Below, piece by piece: positions 9,118 through 39,125 of a DNA stretch of 39,125 bases. Numbering within the stretch: position 1 is the first letter of the stretch; each line of letters begins with the position of its first letter. The stretch covers positions 1 to 39,125 of IMG/VR virus record IMGVR_UViG_3300031565_000139. One strand, written 5' to 3'. This DNA is from a virus. The translations under genes were made by a program, and so were the position numbers. The notes under the pieces were generated by a model that was not told the origin of the DNA, ran no database searches, and saw nothing but the letters and a program-made list of their open reading frames with translations.

Positions 9118-10338
9118 TTATAATGCTTTTTGGCCTTTTCTTTCATTTGATTTAATTACCATTTGAATGTAATACCTTGCTGCATCTATCCTGTGATTAT
9201 AAGCATCTACTGGAATGCTTTTCTTTTTATCAGACCAAACATAATTATTTAGCTCCGTGCCTATCTTTGTGCTTTCAGTACTTACTATTATCTCATAATC
9301 TTGCATTATCTTAATCCCTCTTAAAACTGAACCGGCACCCTTTTTAACCGGATGAATAGTATTAACACCTCTCTTTTTTACATCTGCTATTAATCGAGGT
9401 TCTGCGCTATCGGCAAATATTGTTTTGTTTTTTGCTTCAGTTGCTTTAATCTCATTTGCCAATAAATCAACACCTGCATTATTAAGTTCAAATTCTTCTT
9501 TTAAATATATCTTTTTTCTTCTATTGTCTATTGCAACTCTAATTAAAACGTCAGGGTCTGGAAAGAAACCAAAGTCTAAACCATAACCGAAAGGTAAACT
9601 ATTATCGAACTCTCCATACTTCCAGTTATCAAATACAACACCCTCAGCTGCATCTAACCAACCACCTAACATTCTATGATTGTATTTTTCTGGATTAGTA
9701 AGTCTTAACTTCTCAGCTTTATCTAAAAACTTTTTCGATAAATTCTCTTTGTTATCTAAATAAGTAGCATGAATATATGATACATTACCTTTTGTTAAAT
9801 TACTACCAGGTTCAACCCCCTCGTCTTCAAAGAATCTTTTATAAATGAAATGCTCTTTAGTACATGGGTTTAATAATATTATTACTCGGTTTTGTATTCC
9901 TTTTTTTCTTACTGATTCATCTATCTTGTCAAATGTTTCTTCATCTGTTAGCTCTTCTGCTTCGTCTAGCACCCATGTTGTTAAATCCTGTATTGATTTT
10001 AAGTTTGCTGTCTGGTTTCCTGAGCTTGTTTTAATCCCTCTAAACAAAATAGATGAACCGGATTGAGTATTTAGTATATCGGTCTTGTTTATTTTAAATG
10101 CGCTTTGGTGATTTTCTAATTCTATCTTTTGTTCTATCTCTGGTATAATGGATATACCTGCTGATGTTAAAGTGTATCTTGAATAAAGTATATTGTGCCC
10201 TGATTCAAAAGATAAGTTTTCAATAAAATCTGATACTGTGAATGACTTTGCAGAGCCCCTACCACCTGTAATAATAAAGTAGTTCGATTTGCTTTGCCAT
10301 AATGGTTTGAATATTTTTTTAATCTTTAATCTATCCAT
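9118..10338 (-). CDS. terL: Terminase large subunit
   Basis: ATP-driven DNA packaging motor with a headful or cos nuclease, 406 residues. Seen: Walker A GGRGSAKS (25-32), Walker B TWVLDE (D125, E126), then the C-terminal RNase H-like nuclease with acidic residues in YGLDFG (near 255), FADSAEP (near 310) and DAYNHRIDAARYY (near 385). The length and motif spacing fit the PBSX/SPP1-type terminase family. It overlaps the small subunit gene by 13 bp, as terminase pairs often do. Confidence 0.95.
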   Translation of the reverse strand: MDRLKIKKIFKPLWQSKSNYFIITGGRGSAKSFTVSDFIENLSFESGHNILYSRYTLTSAGISIIPEIEQKIELENHQSAFKINKTDILNTQSGSSILFRGIKTSSGNQTANLKSIQDLTTWVLDEAEELTDEETFDKIDESVRKKGIQNRVIILLNPCTKEHFIYKRFFEDEGVEPGSNLTKGNVSYIHATYLDNKENLSKKFLDKAEKLRLTNPEKYNHRMLGGWLDAAEGVVFDNWKYGEFDNSLPFGYGLDFGFFPDPDVLIRVAIDNRRKKIYLKEEFELNNAGVDLLANEIKATEAKNKTIFADSAEPRLIADVKKRGVNTIHPVKKGAGSVLRGIKIMQDYEIIVSTESTKIGTELNNYVWSDKKKSIPVDAYNHRIDAARYYIQMVIKSNERKGQKAL

Positions 10339-10845: not shown

Positions 10846-10898
10846 TGTGTTTTATTTTAGTGTTTCAAATCCGTTAAAAATAAGTTAAATTATTTATA

Positions 10899-10930
10899 CA
10901 AAGATACTAAATTTAATTGTTATAATCAAT
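10899..10930 (-). promoter_or_regulatory. Promoter of the terminase operon
   Basis: TATCTTTG (complement of 10899-10906) matches TAnnTTTG exactly. An ATTG about 20 bp upstream is a partial -33 box. The transcript would have a leader of about 50 nt containing ACGGATTTGAAACAC, which also occurs before the gene starting at 26464. Confidence 0.5.
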
Positions 10931-10944
10931 TGTATGTAATTATT

Positions 10945-11169
10945 CTATCGTTCATAATCAATGATAATTACACTTGCAGGTAAATGATACCATAATATAG
11001 CATCTACTAATTTAAATTGTAAATTAAACTCTTTGGCGTTCCTTTTGGCTATTTTTTTTCGCGTCTTTAAGGTTGGCTTACCTACTTTTATTTTTTCCCA
11101 CTCTAATGCAATTTGATAAATGCAGTTAGATACATTCTGAGTGTGTTGTTCAAGATTTATAATACTCAT
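10945..11169 (-). CDS. Hypothetical protein, 74 aa
   Basis: Unrecognised. The centre is basic (LKTRKKIAKRNAKEF, near 34-48). It stands alone between the 0.85-kb non-coding region and the terminase promoter. A role linked to that region, such as binding it, would be attractive but is guesswork. Confidence 0.5.
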   Translation of the reverse strand: MSIINLEQHTQNVSNCIYQIALEWEKIKVGKPTLKTRKKIAKRNAKEFNLQFKLVDAILWYHLPASVIIIDYER

Positions 11170-11379
11170 TATTTTTTTTAATTATTTAATATAGTTGTGG
11201 ATATTTGGCATTTATGTTAATATTCCTAAAAATTCATTTAATAAATCTATCCGCAAATTTTACCATAAATATATTTTTCCCCCCCTCTTTACTTTTTTAA
11301 AAAGCATTTAAAAAGTTTCGTGCGTTTTTTATCATTTTTCGCTGTCATTTTATTTTTTTTGAAAACTAGAAAATGAACA

Positions 11380-11405
11380 CCCTATAAATAGGGGCTTACA
11401 GAGGG
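11380..11405. repeat. Flanking direct repeat with hairpin, copy 1
   Basis: ATAGGGGCTTACAGAGGG at 11388-11405 is identical to 11894-11911, 506 bp away. It overlaps a perfect 14-bp palindrome, CCCTATAAATAGGG (11380-11393). These are among the few G-rich stretches in the area. Confidence 0.85.
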
Positions 11406-11884
11406 GGCTAAATCAAAAATGTTCAGACTTTTTTGTCAAAGTTTAGGTTTTCAGAAATCGAAAATTTTTAAAAACTTTTTTTTCGTTTTCAAGGTTTCTA
11501 ACTTTTCGAAAAAAGGTTTATACTTTTTCCTCGGTAAAAAGGTTTTGCGTTTTTGAAAATTTGCTTTATACTTTTTTGTCAAGAAAAAACTTTCCAACTT
11601 TTGAAAAAATACTTTTAACCTTGCGAGCAAAAATTTACTTTCTAAATTTTAAAAATTAGGTTTCAACTTTTTGGTTAAAATCTCAAAACCTTTTTCTTAA
11701 AAAAATACTTTAAACTTTTTAGGCTAAAACTCAAAACCTAAATTTCGAAAAAAAGGTTTGTAATTTTTGTTCAACTTTCAGAAACCTAACTTTCGAAAAA
11801 AAACTTTCACACTTTTTACTTCCAGATAAAAACCTTTTTGAAAGAAAAAAAGTTTTGCATTTTTTGAAAAGTTAAAATCTCAAA

Positions 11885-11911
11885 CCCTTATTTATAGGGG
11901 CTTACAGAGGG
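11885..11911. repeat. Flanking direct repeat with hairpin, copy 2
   Basis: Second copy of the 18-bp repeat (11894-11911). The overlapping dyad is CCCTTATTTATAGGG (11885-11899), differing in its centre from copy 1 but keeping the CCCT/AGGG arms. Both copies have the same orientation. Confidence 0.85.
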
Positions 11912-12120
11912 TCACTTTTTAACTTTTTGCAAGTTTGTGCGATTTTTGCCGAAAAATCCTGAAACTTTTTATTTTTTTGAAAAAACTCAAAGAACGTTTT
12001 AATAATATATTTTTCGCTTAAAAAAGCTCAACCAATTCTTTCTTTCATCACAAATATACGAAATAAAATCTAACGCTTTCTTATTGTGTGATGCTAATAG
12101 TGGTTTAATGTATACCATAA

Positions 12121-12543
12121 TTATTTATTTGAATCAATTTCATTTAAAAAAGTTTGCCAATTAGGAAAATCAACATACATGCCACGCTTCCCAAAATTCA
12201 TTGAAAATACATCTATCATTTCATTTATCATTTTAGTTGTTAATTGCTTGGTTGATTTAATATTAAACAATTCTTTTTGTGTTGGTTTCCAAATTGATTC
12301 TTTTATTAGTTCCATTGTAAATGGAATTTCAAAGCCTAATGAATTTGTAAATGTATATCCTGCATTGTTTAGGGAGTTTGCCCATTTTGTCATATATAAA
12401 TGCAATGCTCTATTTTGTGAAGATGTTCTGGTTGTTGGTGTTAGTTTTTCTTTAAACCAATTAAATACTAGCACCTTATCAATTAATCCAGTATTACAAT
12501 TGAAATATTCAAAAAATTCTCTTCTTATTTTATCCCAATTCAT
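12121..12543 (-). CDS. NinB-like recombination protein
   Basis: This 140-residue protein has the RTSSQNRALHLYM signature near residues 39-51, then an IWKPTQKEL segment, a Thr-rich helix and a C-terminal FPNW. This pattern occurs in many phage proteins assigned to the lambda NinB (Orf) type, which modulates recombination with single-strand-binding protein. It lies in the same operon as a NinG homologue, which supports the call. The similarity to NinB is distant. Confidence 0.5.
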   Translation of the reverse strand: MNWDKIRREFFEYFNCNTGLIDKVLVFNWFKEKLTPTTRTSSQNRALHLYMTKWANSLNNAGYTFTNSLGFEIPFTMELIKESIWKPTQKELFNIKSTKQLTTKMINEMIDVFSMNFGKRGMYVDFPNWQTFLNEIDSNK

Positions 12544-21080: not shown

Positions 21081-21356
21081 TCACTTGCATCTTTCTTCTT
21101 GAATTTTAATATTTTTAATTAACTCTTTTTCAATATCTACATTATTATGAATCAATAAATTCATAGTTACGCATATCAGATCAATTGCCTCTTGTTTATA
21201 ATTATTCTGTTTACCTTTAATTAATTTAAGTAGCTCAGTCGAAAGTTCCCCTTTTTCTTCATTAATCTTATTTGAGAACTCATAAAGTTCTGTGTTAGGT
21301 GTTATCAAGCCACGTTTAACTATGGCCTGATAATGTTGTTTGAATAGTTTTTTCAT
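21081..21356 (-). CDS. MazG-like nucleotide pyrophosphohydrolase
   Basis: 91 residues, all-helical. EEKGEL near residue 34 and QEAIDLI near 56 fit the EExxE...ExxD metal-binding pattern of MazG-type NTP pyrophosphohydrolases. Phage versions adjust nucleotide or (p)ppGpp pools. It overlaps the DnaA-like gene by 4 bp (ATGA). Confidence 0.65.
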   Translation of the reverse strand: MKKLFKQHYQAIVKRGLITPNTELYEFSNKINEEKGELSTELLKLIKGKQNNYKQEAIDLICVTMNLLIHNNVDIEKELIKNIKIQEERCK

Positions 21357-21814
21357 ATAGGATAATGTATTTGTTCGTAATTGTAAACTTTGTCAGATAA
21401 GGCCTTTATTTCATCTCCATAATCATTCCCATAATTTATCTCCATATCACAGAGATAGGCTAATCTTTTTAAGGACTTTTTGTACTCAACAAATTTTAAA
21501 ATATTTATAAAAATTGATTCTACCTGAAATCTTGTTTGTTTGTCATTATCAATTAATTCTTTTATTCGTCTCCATCCGTAATAAACTGTTGAACGGTCAT
21601 ACTTTCTATCTCCTTTGCTAATAAATTCACCGATTTTTTTCTGGCTTAATTTGGTTAATTCGAGACAAAAATAAGATATGTACTTTCGAGCTAAAACAAT
21701 TTCTTTCCTTCTTGACATTGATTTTAGCAAATCGATATGTATGTTTAATGCTGCCAGGACAAAATTTTCAATTTCATCATATTTTAAAATTGGGATATAT
21801 CTATCTAAATTCAT
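21353..21814 (-). CDS. DnaA domain IV-like DNA-binding protein
   Basis: I prefer the ATG at 21814 (MNLDRYIPIL) over 21880: it follows an A-rich leader and avoids overlap with the upstream element. The product is 153 residues. Residues about 30-90 (SRRKEIVLARKYISYF, LSQKKIGEFI, DRSTVYYGWRRIKEL) follow the DnaA C-terminal domain IV: basic-loop helix, IG helix, and the DHSTV-type signature with His replaced. No ATPase domain is present. It could bind an origin or act as a DnaA decoy or regulator. Confidence 0.65.
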   Translation of the reverse strand: MNLDRYIPILKYDEIENFVLAALNIHIDLLKSMSRRKEIVLARKYISYFCLELTKLSQKKIGEFISKGDRKYDRSTVYYGWRRIKELIDNDKQTRFQVESIFINILKFVEYKKSLKRLAYLCDMEINYGNDYGDEIKALSDKVYNYEQIHYPI

Positions 21815-21880
21815 AGTTTTTTTTATTTTAAAAAATATACGTTGATATGGTGTTGTGTGTATATAAGTGTTGTAGTGCAT

Positions 21881-30080: not shown

Positions 30081-31325
30081 TTATGTTATTGTCCAACCAT
30101 TTGTAATTAGGTTATTATAAGCCGTGTCACTGGCACTTGTCCTTGCGGTGTTTCCTGTTATTATTTCTAAAGTTCCATTTATCCAACCTGTCCCGTCTAA
30201 ATTTATAAGTTGATTATCGTGTTCAGTTGCAGAAAGAGAATTGTTTTTAAAATCAATTTCAGCAGGTGTAGATGTTGCGTAAACTGATAAATCTATATTA
30301 GGTAAAGCGCATCCATCCATGTCAAAATTATTTAAACTTCCATTCCCCACAGATGCAAGTGTTATCCCTGTCATTAATGAATTAAACCTCCAAATAACAT
30401 TTGTGCCTGTAGGTACATTTGAAGCATTTACTGTGCCTGTGATATTACAGCTATATGCGTAAAATGTTGAAGTCAAGGTGTTACCTGAGCTTGCAAAGGT
30501 TATTCCTGTTAATAAAGAGTTAGAATGAGAATCGAATACTACACCAATAGGCACGTTAGATAAATTTAAAATTCCTGTTAAATTACAGCTATAAACTTTA
30601 AAATCACTTACTAATGAGTTCCCTGAGCTTGCAAAGGTTATTCCTGTTAATAAAGTGTTAGAATACACTTGGAACAATCCTCCTATCGGTACATTTGATA
30701 AATCTAAAACACCAGTTAAATTATTAGTATATAACCTAAATGCAGTAACTTTTACATTTCCTGAGCTTGCAAATGTAAGAGTTGTTAATGAAGAATTAGA
30801 CCTAATTTCTACGCTTCCTCCTATTGGTACATTTGATAGATTTAATGATGTAATTGCCGTAAATCTTATAATTAAATTATTTACTATACCATTACCAGAA
30901 GTTGCAAATATAATTTCTGTTAGCCCTGCGTTTGAATATGGTCTAAATATTCCACTAATAGGGGCTAATGACATATCTAAAACTCCTATATATAAATTGG
31001 TATTTATGTTAAATTCAGTTAATAATCCTGTTTTTAGTCCTGATATAAACGTAATCCTTGAATTATCAGCTACAAATTTAGTAATACCTAGTAAATCCCC
31101 TGTAATCTCAGCAATATAAGTTCCTGCTAAAGTGTAAGTATGCGTTAACTCAATACCACTTACAAAATTTTCTGTAGCACTTCCATCCTTCCAATCAATT
31201 GTAAGTGTACCACTGGCAAAAGTTAAGTTAATGCCAGCAGTAAACCCAGCAGTTGGCGTCATTGTGATTTTAATAGCATCTGCTGATACTTTTTGAGATA
31301 ATAAACCAATAGGATAAGTAATCAT
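30081..31325 (-). CDS. Leucine-rich-repeat virion protein, probable receptor-binding protein
   Basis: 414 residues. The N-terminus (to about 100) resembles a PKD/BspA-type beta domain (TIDWKDGSATENF, HTYTLAGTY). Then come about five double repeats of 46 residues, each two 23-residue leucine-rich units such as LSNVPIGG and LTGITFASSGN. The last 60 residues are different. LRR_5/BspA-type repeats are common in surface-binding proteins of Bacteroidota. It follows the fibre genes, so host recognition is likely. Confidence 0.65.
   Translation of the reverse strand: MITYPIGLLSQKVSADAIKITMTPTAGFTAGINLTFASGTLTIDWKDGSATENFVSGIELTHTYTLAGTYIAEITGDLLGITKFVADNSRITFISGLKTGLLTEFNINTNLYIGVLDMSLAPISGIFRPYSNAGLTEIIFATSGNGIVNNLIIRFTAITSLNLSNVPIGGSVEIRSNSSLTTLTFASSGNVKVTAFRLYTNNLTGVLDLSNVPIGGLFQVYSNTLLTGITFASSGNSLVSDFKVYSCNLTGILNLSNVPIGVVFDSHSNSLLTGITFASSGNTLTSTFYAYSCNITGTVNASNVPTGTNVIWRFNSLMTGITLASVGNGSLNNFDMDGCALPNIDLSVYATSTPAEIDFKNNSLSATEHDNQLINLDGTGWINGTLEIITGNTARTSASDTAYNNLITNGWTIT
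30346..30905 (-). repeat. 138-bp tandem coding repeats in the LRR gene
   Basis: The string CCTGAGCTTGCAAA recurs in phase near 30484, 30622 and 30760 (exactly 138 bp apart), with diverged units at 30346 and 30895. The units at 30484 and 30622 share a 30-bp block unchanged, which suggests recent duplication or exchange. Confidence 0.8.
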
Positions 31326-31882: not shown

Positions 31883-34072
31883 TTAAGGTGCTATTGTGTT
31901 AATTGTATAATGTACATCAGAGTTGGCATTTACAAATACTGTTATTGTGTTGTATGCTGTATTAGTATTATCTAGTGCAGGTGAATTATCATAGGCATCG
32001 CCAAAAGTTGCACCTATTGTTATAGTCGGTGGAGTTGCAGTGTTAATGTATAAATCTATTACATAAGTTCCTGGCAATAAATTTGATAATCCTATTGTAG
32101 TATCAGCAGTAACAGCCATGTACTGATTATTCCCGTTATTACCATCAAATGTAGTTGATGCTGCAAATGTTTGTATATGGTATCCACCGTGAGCCTGCCC
32201 ATTAACTACTAAGTTTCCCGTTAATGTTAATAAGGTTTTTGTTATTGTATTTGCTAAATCTAATTCTATTTGCTCATTACCGGCAGGCAGTAAAATAGCC
32301 TTTAGTAAATTTGATGTAACAGCTAACTTGTCAGTTAAATACGAATTGGTTGTATCGGTTGCTGATATTCTTACCTTATCATCTAATCCACCGCCACCAG
32401 AAGCACCACCACCACCAGTTCCACCTATTAATCTTGTTCTATTATCAAGTGTGCTTATTTCTGTCCATGTAGCACCACCCCCACCAGTTCGAGCAACTAC
32501 AATTGTATATAATTTAAATAATACACCTTCGGTAATTATGTCATTTGGTGCAACATCATAATTAGATGCATCTGTTAATGCTTCGGCTGCAGAAGAATAA
32601 TAACCTAATGGTCTAGTAACTATAAGCTTATCACTTGAAGCTAAAGCCCCACCGGACCCGCTGTTTTGCATTCCATAAACAGGAAGCCTATAATAAGCAC
32701 CATTAACCGCTAAAGAGACTCCTAAAGCGGTTTGTATAATACTAGCTAAATCTGTAACAGTTTCATAAGTTGCTGTGTTTGTTGTATCGTTATAAATCGA
32801 ATATTTAGTACCATCCTGTAAATCAAATGAACTCTTATGTGCTTGCATGGCAATACCCGCTGTTGTGGCTATTGTTATGCTTGGTGTTGAATTTACTACC
32901 ACTGTGGCATCTATACCACTTGTATAAGTTGTGCCAAGCTTATCTCTTGAGATATCAGCCATCCAGCGATTAAACCCGTCATCCACTCCATTATCAGGTG
33001 CATCATTGTATCTTCTCCATTTGTATACACCCTCTGTTAATGTTCTGGTTACATTAAATAAAGATGCTTTCCCTATTGGCGCTAACTCATCAGAAGTAGC
33101 AAGGGTTGAAACCTTTAATTCTGGGGTTGTTCCGTTTAACCAAACATAAATATAATTCTCAAACAAAGTGGAAGCATCAACACCCGCAACTAAAGCAGCA
33201 AAAGCGCCATTATTTGGCCCTCCTCCGGATGTTGTGTTAAGTAAGTACCTTGTTCCATCTAAAATAAAAGCTAAATCCTTTAATGGGGCGTTTTGATTAG
33301 TGACTTCTATGTAAACAGTTCCACCTGATTCGTAAAATTCTACTGCTGGTGTCTCAACTACAACACCATTTAAAGTTCCTTCAATGTTTACAGTTGTATC
33401 TGAGCCGCTAAATGCTAAAGTGTCAACACCTATTACTCCCAAAGTAGCATGTGAAATCAAACAAACCCCAATTCTAACCGGATAATTTGGTGCTTTTGGT
33501 CTAACATTTGTCCACCCTCCTAAAACTAAAGGATTTCCATAAACGATATCGCCAGGTGTTAAGGCGATTGTGTTTAAATTTCGTACAGCTCCATATCTTA
33601 CAGCGTATCCAGGGTTTCCGTTTATAGTTTCGATGGTCATTAACCCAAAACCTCTAATAGAACTATCTATATTTGAGCTATCTAATAATTCAACCTGAAG
33701 ACTTGCACCAACAGCCCCAGTGACCGAAACAGCGACACCATCTAATAATGTTGCTCCTGTATCATTGACTAATCGTGCTCTTAGTTCTTCGCCTAATTGT
33801 AATGAAATACCTTCAATGTCATTATAAGCTGACCATGTATTTTCTGTTGAATCATAAAATAATCTAGCTATCTTATAACTTGGTGGTGTTGCTTGCGGTG
33901 TGAAATCAAGCCAGTCAAATACACTTGCAATTGCTTGTACTAATGTTTTGAAATATGACCATAACATATTTTTACCACCAGATACTGAAGGTTGCCCAAA
34001 TGCAATTCTATCATTATCATCCGGTAGGGTTGGTGTTGTTATTAGCGTCTGATTAAATAATTCTTTTGGCAT
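31883..34072 (-). CDS. Tail fibre/baseplate upper protein, 729 aa
   Basis: N-terminal virion-attachment part (MPKELFNQTLITTPTLPDDN...), then beta-rich repeats with many Thr, Gly and Asn, a glycine hinge near residues 553-567, and a compact C-terminal beta domain (residues 600-729). This is the usual build of trimeric fibre or receptor-binding proteins. No enzymatic motif was recognised, so depolymerase activity is not claimed. The start overlaps the stop of the adaptor gene by one base. Confidence 0.65.
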   Translation of the reverse strand: MPKELFNQTLITTPTLPDDNDRIAFGQPSVSGGKNMLWSYFKTLVQAIASVFDWLDFTPQATPPSYKIARLFYDSTENTWSAYNDIEGISLQLGEELRARLVNDTGATLLDGVAVSVTGAVGASLQVELLDSSNIDSSIRGFGLMTIETINGNPGYAVRYGAVRNLNTIALTPGDIVYGNPLVLGGWTNVRPKAPNYPVRIGVCLISHATLGVIGVDTLAFSGSDTTVNIEGTLNGVVVETPAVEFYESGGTVYIEVTNQNAPLKDLAFILDGTRYLLNTTSGGGPNNGAFAALVAGVDASTLFENYIYVWLNGTTPELKVSTLATSDELAPIGKASLFNVTRTLTEGVYKWRRYNDAPDNGVDDGFNRWMADISRDKLGTTYTSGIDATVVVNSTPSITIATTAGIAMQAHKSSFDLQDGTKYSIYNDTTNTATYETVTDLASIIQTALGVSLAVNGAYYRLPVYGMQNSGSGGALASSDKLIVTRPLGYYSSAAEALTDASNYDVAPNDIITEGVLFKLYTIVVARTGGGGATWTEISTLDNRTRLIGGTGGGGASGGGGLDDKVRISATDTTNSYLTDKLAVTSNLLKAILLPAGNEQIELDLANTITKTLLTLTGNLVVNGQAHGGYHIQTFAASTTFDGNNGNNQYMAVTADTTIGLSNLLPGTYVIDLYINTATPPTITIGATFGDAYDNSPALDNTNTAYNTITVFVNANSDVHYTINTIAP

Positions 34073-34617
34073 TATAGGACTGTTTTACGTACGGTTATTA
34101 ATCTTGGTGTGTAAGGTCGTTTAGTTCTTGAACATTCCCACAAAGGGTATAAAGTATCGTTTTCGTTCAAATATTCTTTCATTATCTGGAAATCACTTAA
34201 GGCAATTTCTTGATACCTTTTTTTATAGTTGTTTAATTCTCCTTGTGATAGTTCTACACTTTCGGGTCTGGATTTTTTTACCATACCCGTATAAGAATCT
34301 TGTATTTTTGATTCAAGCATATATTCAGCATAAACCATATTGGCTAATTGAAATCTAATACCTTGAAATTCTACTGTATCATTGTTACAGTTTTCAAAAA
34401 TAGTCCCATCCAAAAGTAAAACATTTAATGCTGTCAATGGATTAGTTTGTAAATCATAAAGTAAAGCATTACCTAGTAATTTTCTAAGCTCTAAATTTTC
34501 AACTTCACTTTCTATTTGTGTAAAGTTAGTAGTTCCGCTAATCTCTTTAGTGGATAGCGCCCAATTTTGCGAAATCGGTTTAATTAAGTTCTGTTGTGCC
34601 AGTGTTAGTAATGCCAT
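34072..34617 (-). CDS. Head-tail adaptor-like protein, 181 aa
   Basis: Mostly helical, with LTLAQQNLIKPISQNWALS at the start and MVYAEYMLESKIQDSYTGMVKKS in the centre. Size, helical pattern and place right after the portal suit a connector or adaptor. It overlaps the portal gene by 38 bp. Family not confirmed. Confidence 0.5.
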   Translation of the reverse strand: MALLTLAQQNLIKPISQNWALSTKEISGTTNFTQIESEVENLELRKLLGNALLYDLQTNPLTALNVLLLDGTIFENCNNDTVEFQGIRFQLANMVYAEYMLESKIQDSYTGMVKKSRPESVELSQGELNNYKKRYQEIALSDFQIMKEYLNENDTLYPLWECSRTKRPYTPRLITVRKTVL

Positions 34618-38487: not shown

Positions 38488-39125
38488 TTATTTTTTTTTA
38501 TAAGTAAAACTCTTTTTGCCAGTATTTTTTTCTTCCGGCACTTTTATTTCTTCTTTCTCATTCGAGAATCTATTCTTAAATTCATTGAACTTTGTTTCAA
38601 TGTCCTTAATATTAGATTCAAGTGTATTGCTATTTGCTTTTAAATCATTGTACTCTTTTTCTTTAGTACTATATGAATTTTGCAATTGCTCATTCTCTTG
38701 CTTTAACTGTTCTACTTCCTGCTTAAGGGCTTCTACTTCGTCATTCCCTTCTGCTTCGGCTTCTTTAATTTCCATCAAAGTACCTGCTTCAAAAACATAA
38801 ATAACACCATCAGGCATTACATGCTCTTTATTTGCTGGTTCACCGTTTACAGTAGCTGTGTTACCTACGGCTATTTGCTCAACAGTTTCTATCTCATCTC
38901 CAAAATCTAATCCATCTCCATTAACATCTTGAACTACGAGGTTCTTAACGGACTTTATGAAAAGATTTTTTACAACGGCCAAAGTATCATTTACTTTATC
39001 CCCGATTGTTTTTAATTCTTTTTCTTGTTCTGCATTCATTTCTTCATTTTTTATTTCTGTTTGATTAATAAAATTCATTGCTATACATTCATCTACATAC
39101 ATAAAACGTTCTTCTTTCATTATTG
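38488..39125 (-). CDS. Prohead protease-scaffold fusion, C-terminal part
   Basis: Continuation of the gene at 1-686, joined through the 127-bp repeat. The ORF beginning at 39120 is internal: the frame is open to the edge and continues to the ATG at 686. Residues after about 205 form the scaffold: NAEQEKELKTIGDKV, a short beta part, then a long coiled coil with EALKQEVEQLKQENEQLQNS (near 318-337) and a basic tail ending SFTYKKK. The scaffold shapes the prohead and is then cut out. It is 6 bp upstream of the capsid gene. Confidence 0.88.
   Translation of the reverse strand, partial: IMKEERFMYVDECIAMNFINQTEIKNEEMNAEQEKELKTIGDKVNDTLAVVKNLFIKSVKNLVVQDVNGDGLDFGDEIETVEQIAVGNTATVNGEPANKEHVMPDGVIYVFEAGTLMEIKEAEAEGNDEVEALKQEVEQLKQENEQLQNSYSTKEKEYNDLKANSNTLESNIKDIETKFNEFKNRFSNEKEEIKVPEEKNTGKKSFTYKKK
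38999..39125. repeat. Terminal direct repeat (contig-end overlap), right copy
   Basis: Identical to 1-127. See the left copy. Confidence 0.95.

Follow-up and report, generated by a model that had tools for sequence, protein, structure and literature searches.

A transferable, gene-free repeat cassette with a boxA-like signal at one end in Bacteroidota phages

Positions 11244-12033 of the 39,125-nucleotide phage record IMGVR_UViG_3300031565_000139 (the whole of which we refer to as the window) are occupied by a non-coding block of DNA, and comparison with related phages establishes well that this block is transferable. The order and distances of its parts (ends, spacing, period) are conserved in the sequences compared. 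We read the block as a cassette of Bacteroidota phages with a boxA/nut-like leader, from which transcription of the minus strand would yield a long untranslated RNA, an interpretation to which, taken as a whole, we give about an even chance. A gene-free repeat cassette traded among Bacteroidota phages is absent from both the annotation and the RNA libraries that we searched, and the boxA, being of the host-rRNA type, offers a concrete and cheap test by which long RNA genes could be told from selfish DNA.

The stretch 11170-12120 contains no gene of at least 60 amino acids, and the open frames that occur lack gene character; a coding reading was considered in all frames and ruled out since none holds a gene-like open frame, in agreement with the first-pass annotation, according to which no gene fits here. 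That annotation also correctly placed the region near the terminase operon, the block lying upstream of the terS-like and terL genes (TerL, 9118-10338, Pfam Terminase_3) with one 74-aa ORF in between. The two identical 18-bp sequences that it had reported, ATAGGGGCTTACAGAGGG, are exact copies at 11388-11405 and 11894-11911, 506 bp apart, each overlapping or following a CCCT...AGGG dyad as had been described, and no further copy with up to three mismatches was found in the whole window (none expected). The 488 bp between them (11406-11893) have a period of 48 bp and comprise about ten degenerate units, with an autocorrelation at lag 48 of 0.545 (z 9.4 relative to dinucleotide shuffles) that persists at lags 96 (z 7.8) and 144 (z 5.8); no comparable periodicity is seen in flanking stretches of equal length. 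Each unit is made up of two 24-bp A-run/T-run halves, giving a strong 24-bp alternation, and the "about 18 units of 20-25 bp" counted initially are thus half-units. The strong intrinsic curvature that had been predicted from these runs was not recovered in calculations with the wedge parameters of Bolshoy et al., in which dinucleotide shuffles of the array score higher than the array itself (z of -0.9, -2.4 and -1.8 for 31, 63 and 126 bp), and a curved DNA site was therefore rejected. Cumulative GC skew, suggested as a check for an origin, runs monotonically from one end of the window to the other, reflecting the minus-strand position of the genes, and is uninformative in this respect. The earlier observation was largely real and in part misread; the actual unit, 11244-12033, is larger than the array.

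The limits of this unit are set by a sister contig, IMGVR_UViG_3300031539_005574 (L017), that derives from the same sample and is 97-98% identical to the window over approximately 1.2 kb around the site. Identity amounts to 97.8% at 12034-12543 and 96.9% at 10883-11204, window positions 11205-11243 (39 bp) are matched exactly, and 11244-12033 are absent. In their place L017 has 93 bp that complete an intact minus-strand ORF of 69 aa. Of this ORF the window still has the opening 28 codons (12034-12118, minus strand), cut off by the insertion, as well as the last codons and stop (11212-11243, minus strand), and because both ends of the broken ORF are kept the state in the window is the derived one. 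The insertion replaced the 93 bp that are now missing rather than simply splitting the ORF, and no direct repeat indicative of a target duplication was found at the block edges, where the longest shared word is 6 bp. A second difference between the sisters occurs at 11204/11205, where the window lacks, with clean edges, 353 bp that in L017 contain a 94-aa ORF. Below position 10883 the terminase and portal genes of the sister contig (1322-7256) are different and unrelated, forming a sharp mosaic joint, so that L017 is to be regarded as a mosaic relative and not as the same phage.

Scanning for a degenerate form of the core motif revealed a counterpart of the block in a 30.4 kb record, IMGVR_UViG_3300005613_000289 (L130), with 81% identity to window positions 11235-12027 over 795 bp. 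Neither blastn nor tblastx over 14 kb of L130 detected any other similarity between the two phages. The edges of the homology (12027 and approximately 11235) fall within about 10 bp of those defined by the sister contig (12033 and 11244), and the L130 array is shorter by exactly one 48-bp unit; a 12-bp repeat inside the block, AATATATTTTTC, is largely kept. More distant members, L040, L164, L119 (identical to L111) and L151, have cores, ends and a period of 47-48 bp in common and lie in other gene contexts. L040 (about 0.5 kb, period 47) has two cores in direct orientation; in L164 the boxA-side core is inverted and the period is 48; L119 has inverted ends and a period of 47; and L151 comprises one end, beside the same gene as the L164 element. 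Core orientation thus varies among members. The repeats are therefore conserved in relatives, the opposite of the outcome that had been named at the outset as speaking against the region.

The surroundings of these elements, for which genes were named by inspection of the proteins, differ from phage to phage. The L130 element adjoins and follows terL, that of L040 precedes a tape-measure-like gene, that of L119 a lysin-like gene, and that of L164 is found between a head gene and genes for secreted proteins, beside a homologue of window gene 34072-34617. The head genes of the L164 phage are related to those of the window by tblastx and its element occupies a different gap. Every record searched has a single copy per phage record. 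The elements of the window, L130, L040 and L164 point in the direction of the neighbouring genes; the L119 element, which has no exact boxA, appears to point against its genes. Inverted-repeat ends are strong in L119 (score of 118 vs 24 for shuffles) and weak in the window (54) and in L040 (47), for which shuffles give 24-27.

Several further matches were recorded in the course of these searches. In L164 (approximately 740-1440 as stored) an inverted copy of the opposite end seems to have taken the place of the core domain on the boxA side, which gives the element inverted ends; L151, adjacent to the same gene, is oriented normally. An intergenic region of L121 (6728-6774) has a single core hairpin, AAACCCTTACTGACAGGGGCTTACAGAGG, with no array, 83% like part of the block (E 2.8e-8). 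The sequence TTATTATATAGGGGTTTCAGAGGCACATGG, which is near the core motif and likewise has no array, is common to a group of related contigs comprising L132, L133, L134, L137, L138, L139, L143, L144, L145, L148, L149, L154, L156-L159 and L163. Comparison by blastn with phage and plasmid records gave no match or matches at chance level, two additional scans with end motifs returned the known members and no new ones, and the same array was not found near the genes of TerL relatives. Two exact 17-mer matches in bacterial genomes (a cyanobacterium and a Binatia MAG) were taken as chance, and the same holds for most of the 104 matches to the 15-mer core, which lie in open frames (reading EGLTEA).

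If the minus strand, which carries both the boxA and the phage genes, is taken as the sense of the block, the block begins with GCTTTTTTAAGCG followed by CGTTCTTTGA. The former is an edge hairpin (12015-12027) that marks the outer limit of the L130 homology in the alignment, the latter a boxA-like signal (11987-11996). Behind it come a two-part hairpin (AAGUUU/AAACUU and GAUUUUU/AAAAAUC, 11931-11967), the boxA-side core hairpin with one 18-bp repeat (11882-11911), the array of about ten degenerate units (11406-11881), the second core hairpin with the other 18-bp repeat (11380-11405) and a tail domain (11244-11379) with similarity to L164 and to the left ends of the L040 and L119 elements, all on the minus strand.

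The boxA-like word is found at the same end of five elements (window, L130, L040, L151 and L164) that had been chosen by their core motif alone. Its distance to the first core is 87 bp in the window and in L130 and 86 bp in L040 and L151; in L164 it is 165 bp. The window has a single copy of the 9-mer GTTCTTTGA. Among Bacteroidota rRNA operons taken from plasmid records it is present in five of eight leaders (Prevotella, Segatella, Hymenobacter, Persicobacter and Aureibacter), some 120-220 nt upstream of 16S. The Flammeovirga leader reads GTTCTTTTGA, and those examined from Flavobacterium and Chryseobacterium did not yield an exact match. On the basis of these matches CGTTCTTTGA is by sequence a boxA of the Bacteroidota rRNA-leader type. 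The hairpin behind it is kept in L151, in L130, where a single U-A pair has become U-G, and in L164, where it lies at the far end and has an A-U to U-A double change; in L040 the outer stem is retained and the inner stem is different. The core hairpin likewise shows a double change, being GAAAC/GUUUC in L130 and GUAAC/GUUAC in L164. These are few events in hand-aligned hairpins and we consider them no more than supportive. No conserved promoter was found ahead of the boxA.

Identity between the window and L130 is 93% in the boxA-side domain and 85% in both the array and the other end. Substitutions in the array are distributed unevenly, affecting 7% of the positions in A or T runs of at least four and 21% of those elsewhere (Fisher p 3e-5), a contrast that persists when the comparison is restricted to A/T positions (13 of 189 in runs vs 30 of 135). 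Corresponding units of the two arrays are 85% alike, compared with about 55% for units at lag 48 within one array, indicating that the array predates the split between window and L130 and that each unit keeps its identity; judged from these alignments it is not a fast-turning minisatellite. Each strand of the block folds better than 20 of 20 shuffles, with z scores of -2.0 and -2.8. Shared-fold z scores for the whole block are 2.7, 1.9, -0.2 and 0.6, depending on strand and direction, and covariation is weak, with one to three double changes and mostly broken pairs. The initial suggestion that the units might be transcribed as a long structured RNA gains support from one end of the block, with its boxA-like signal and conserved hairpin, and finds no backing from covariation in the fold of the array. 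An Rfam search at a lax threshold gave no plausible match, the best being a eukaryotic snoRNA far below the cut-off. There is a substantial chance that the block, a repeat-bearing transferable non-coding element, constitutes a new RNA family. More tentatively, at somewhat less than even confidence, the family might be one of horizontally exchanged phage ncRNA genes in Bacteroidota, in which a nut-like leader with an rRNA boxA would drive an RNA of 47-48-nt repeat modules acting as scaffold, sponge or antitermination device.

The following scheme would account for the arrangement. The cassette, which runs from edge hairpin through boxA-like signal, hairpin, core hairpin, 48-bp array and second core hairpin to the tail, landed in a small ORF of the window phage, and RNA polymerase reading through the surrounding minus-strand genes would most likely transcribe it. 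The boxA and the hairpin behind it may then load the NusB-S10 antitermination complex of the host, in the manner of rRNA leaders, and polymerase could continue through some 0.7 kb of untranslated RNA with no termination by Rho; antitermination of this kind is proposed to be the reason why a long untranslated array would not be cut short by Rho. To our knowledge boxA-based antitermination outside rRNA has been little studied in Bacteroidota. That the elements of the window, L130, L040 and L164 are oriented along their genes fits this scheme; the seemingly opposite orientation in L119 leaves some plausibility to a free-standing gene or to a selfish element.

Parts of this arrangement have parallels in known systems. 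The boxA word of Bacteroidota rRNA leaders equals the CGTTCTTTGA of the block. In the nut sites of phage lambda a boxB hairpin is close to boxA, as the hairpin is in the block. In contrast to these systems, the block is not next to rRNA, an array of 48-nt units accompanies its hairpin, and no N-like protein was identified. CRISPR arrays share with the block a long untranslated repeat array behind a boxA, and their protection by boxA complexes is described in PMC12691694, with reference to Stringer et al. 2020. The block as a CRISPR array was itself rejected: there are no identical repeats with unique spacers and the units diverge throughout. GOLLD and ROOL RNAs are similarly phage-borne, non-coding and about 600-800 nt in length, and have elaborate folds backed by covariation, their function being unknown (PMC12286853); the body of the block is in contrast a repeat array, its fold is without such backing and it has no Rfam match.

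The closest described counterpart in kind is the Porphyromonas gingivalis element BrickBuilt, in which a MITE surrounds a minisatellite of 23-nt units (PMC4596501). BrickBuilt too is a non-coding element of a Bacteroidota species with a plan of leader, tandem array and tail, whole-unit gain and loss and weak inverted ends, and transcripts are reported from some copies. Its units are 23 nt long and near-identical, in contrast to the degenerate 48-nt units of the block; it is present in 19 copies in one chromosome, always intergenic, as opposed to single phage copies and, in the window, a position inside an ORF; and its IS5-type terminal repeats, GAGACCTTTGCA, are absent from the block, in which the best match to such ends has 3-4 mismatches in 12. 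The portions of the BrickBuilt account considered here report no boxA, of which the block has one (PMC4596501).

BrickBuilt thus provides a Bacteroidota precedent for the main rival explanation, that the block is a MITE-like non-autonomous element with a trapped minisatellite, moved in trans, whose boxA and hairpins are ends or hitch-hiking signals and which makes no useful RNA. Presence in the window and absence in the sister contig, different sites in different phages, and inverted-repeat ends, strong in L119 and weak in the window and L040, are all as such an element would have them. The edges with no target duplication and no BrickBuilt-type ends, the single copy per record, the replacement of 93 bp rather than a simple split and the inconstant orientation of the cores speak against it, and we regard this explanation as rather unlikely, if still to be taken seriously. 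A cis-acting DNA module exchanged between phages, whether an origin, a partition-like site or a protein-bound array of A/T runs, would explain why the runs are conserved above the rest, the regular 48-bp spacing and the gain or loss of units, features typical of clusters of binding sites. Such a module gives no part to a boxA at fixed distance, it is not essential at a place where the sister stretch lacks it, predicted curvature is ordinary and GC skew uninformative; we think it improbable. That the block is a decaying minisatellite or dead gene with no function would fit units that are only about 55% alike and the lack of a gene-like open frame, and was already disfavoured; the conservation of ends, spacing, period and A/T runs across diverged members makes it very improbable. 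A packaging site (pac/cos), as had been considered, is the least credible, and another fixed site of this phage is likewise unsupported, for in spite of the position upstream of the terS-like gene in the window and adjoining terL in L130, the L040, L119 and L164 elements are far from terminase genes, so that position is not conserved, and the sister, 97-98% identical around the site, is without the block and has its own terminase genes nearby.

With regard to the phage as a whole, positions 1-127 and 38999-39125 of the window are identical (127 bp), and these identical ends make it probable that the phage genome, of about 39.0 kb, is complete and maps as a circle. The relatives of its TerL are from Nonlabens, Riemerella and Flavobacterium phages, which together with the boxA word points to a host in the Bacteroidota. 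A 175-aa protein encoded at 21353-21880 has a DnaA C-terminal helix-turn-helix domain (Pfam), unusual outside DnaA, and is a candidate DNA-binding partner for an origin. Finally, a 138-bp tandem repeat in about two copies (30484-30773) lies inside a 414-aa gene (30081-31325) in the tail/fibre region.
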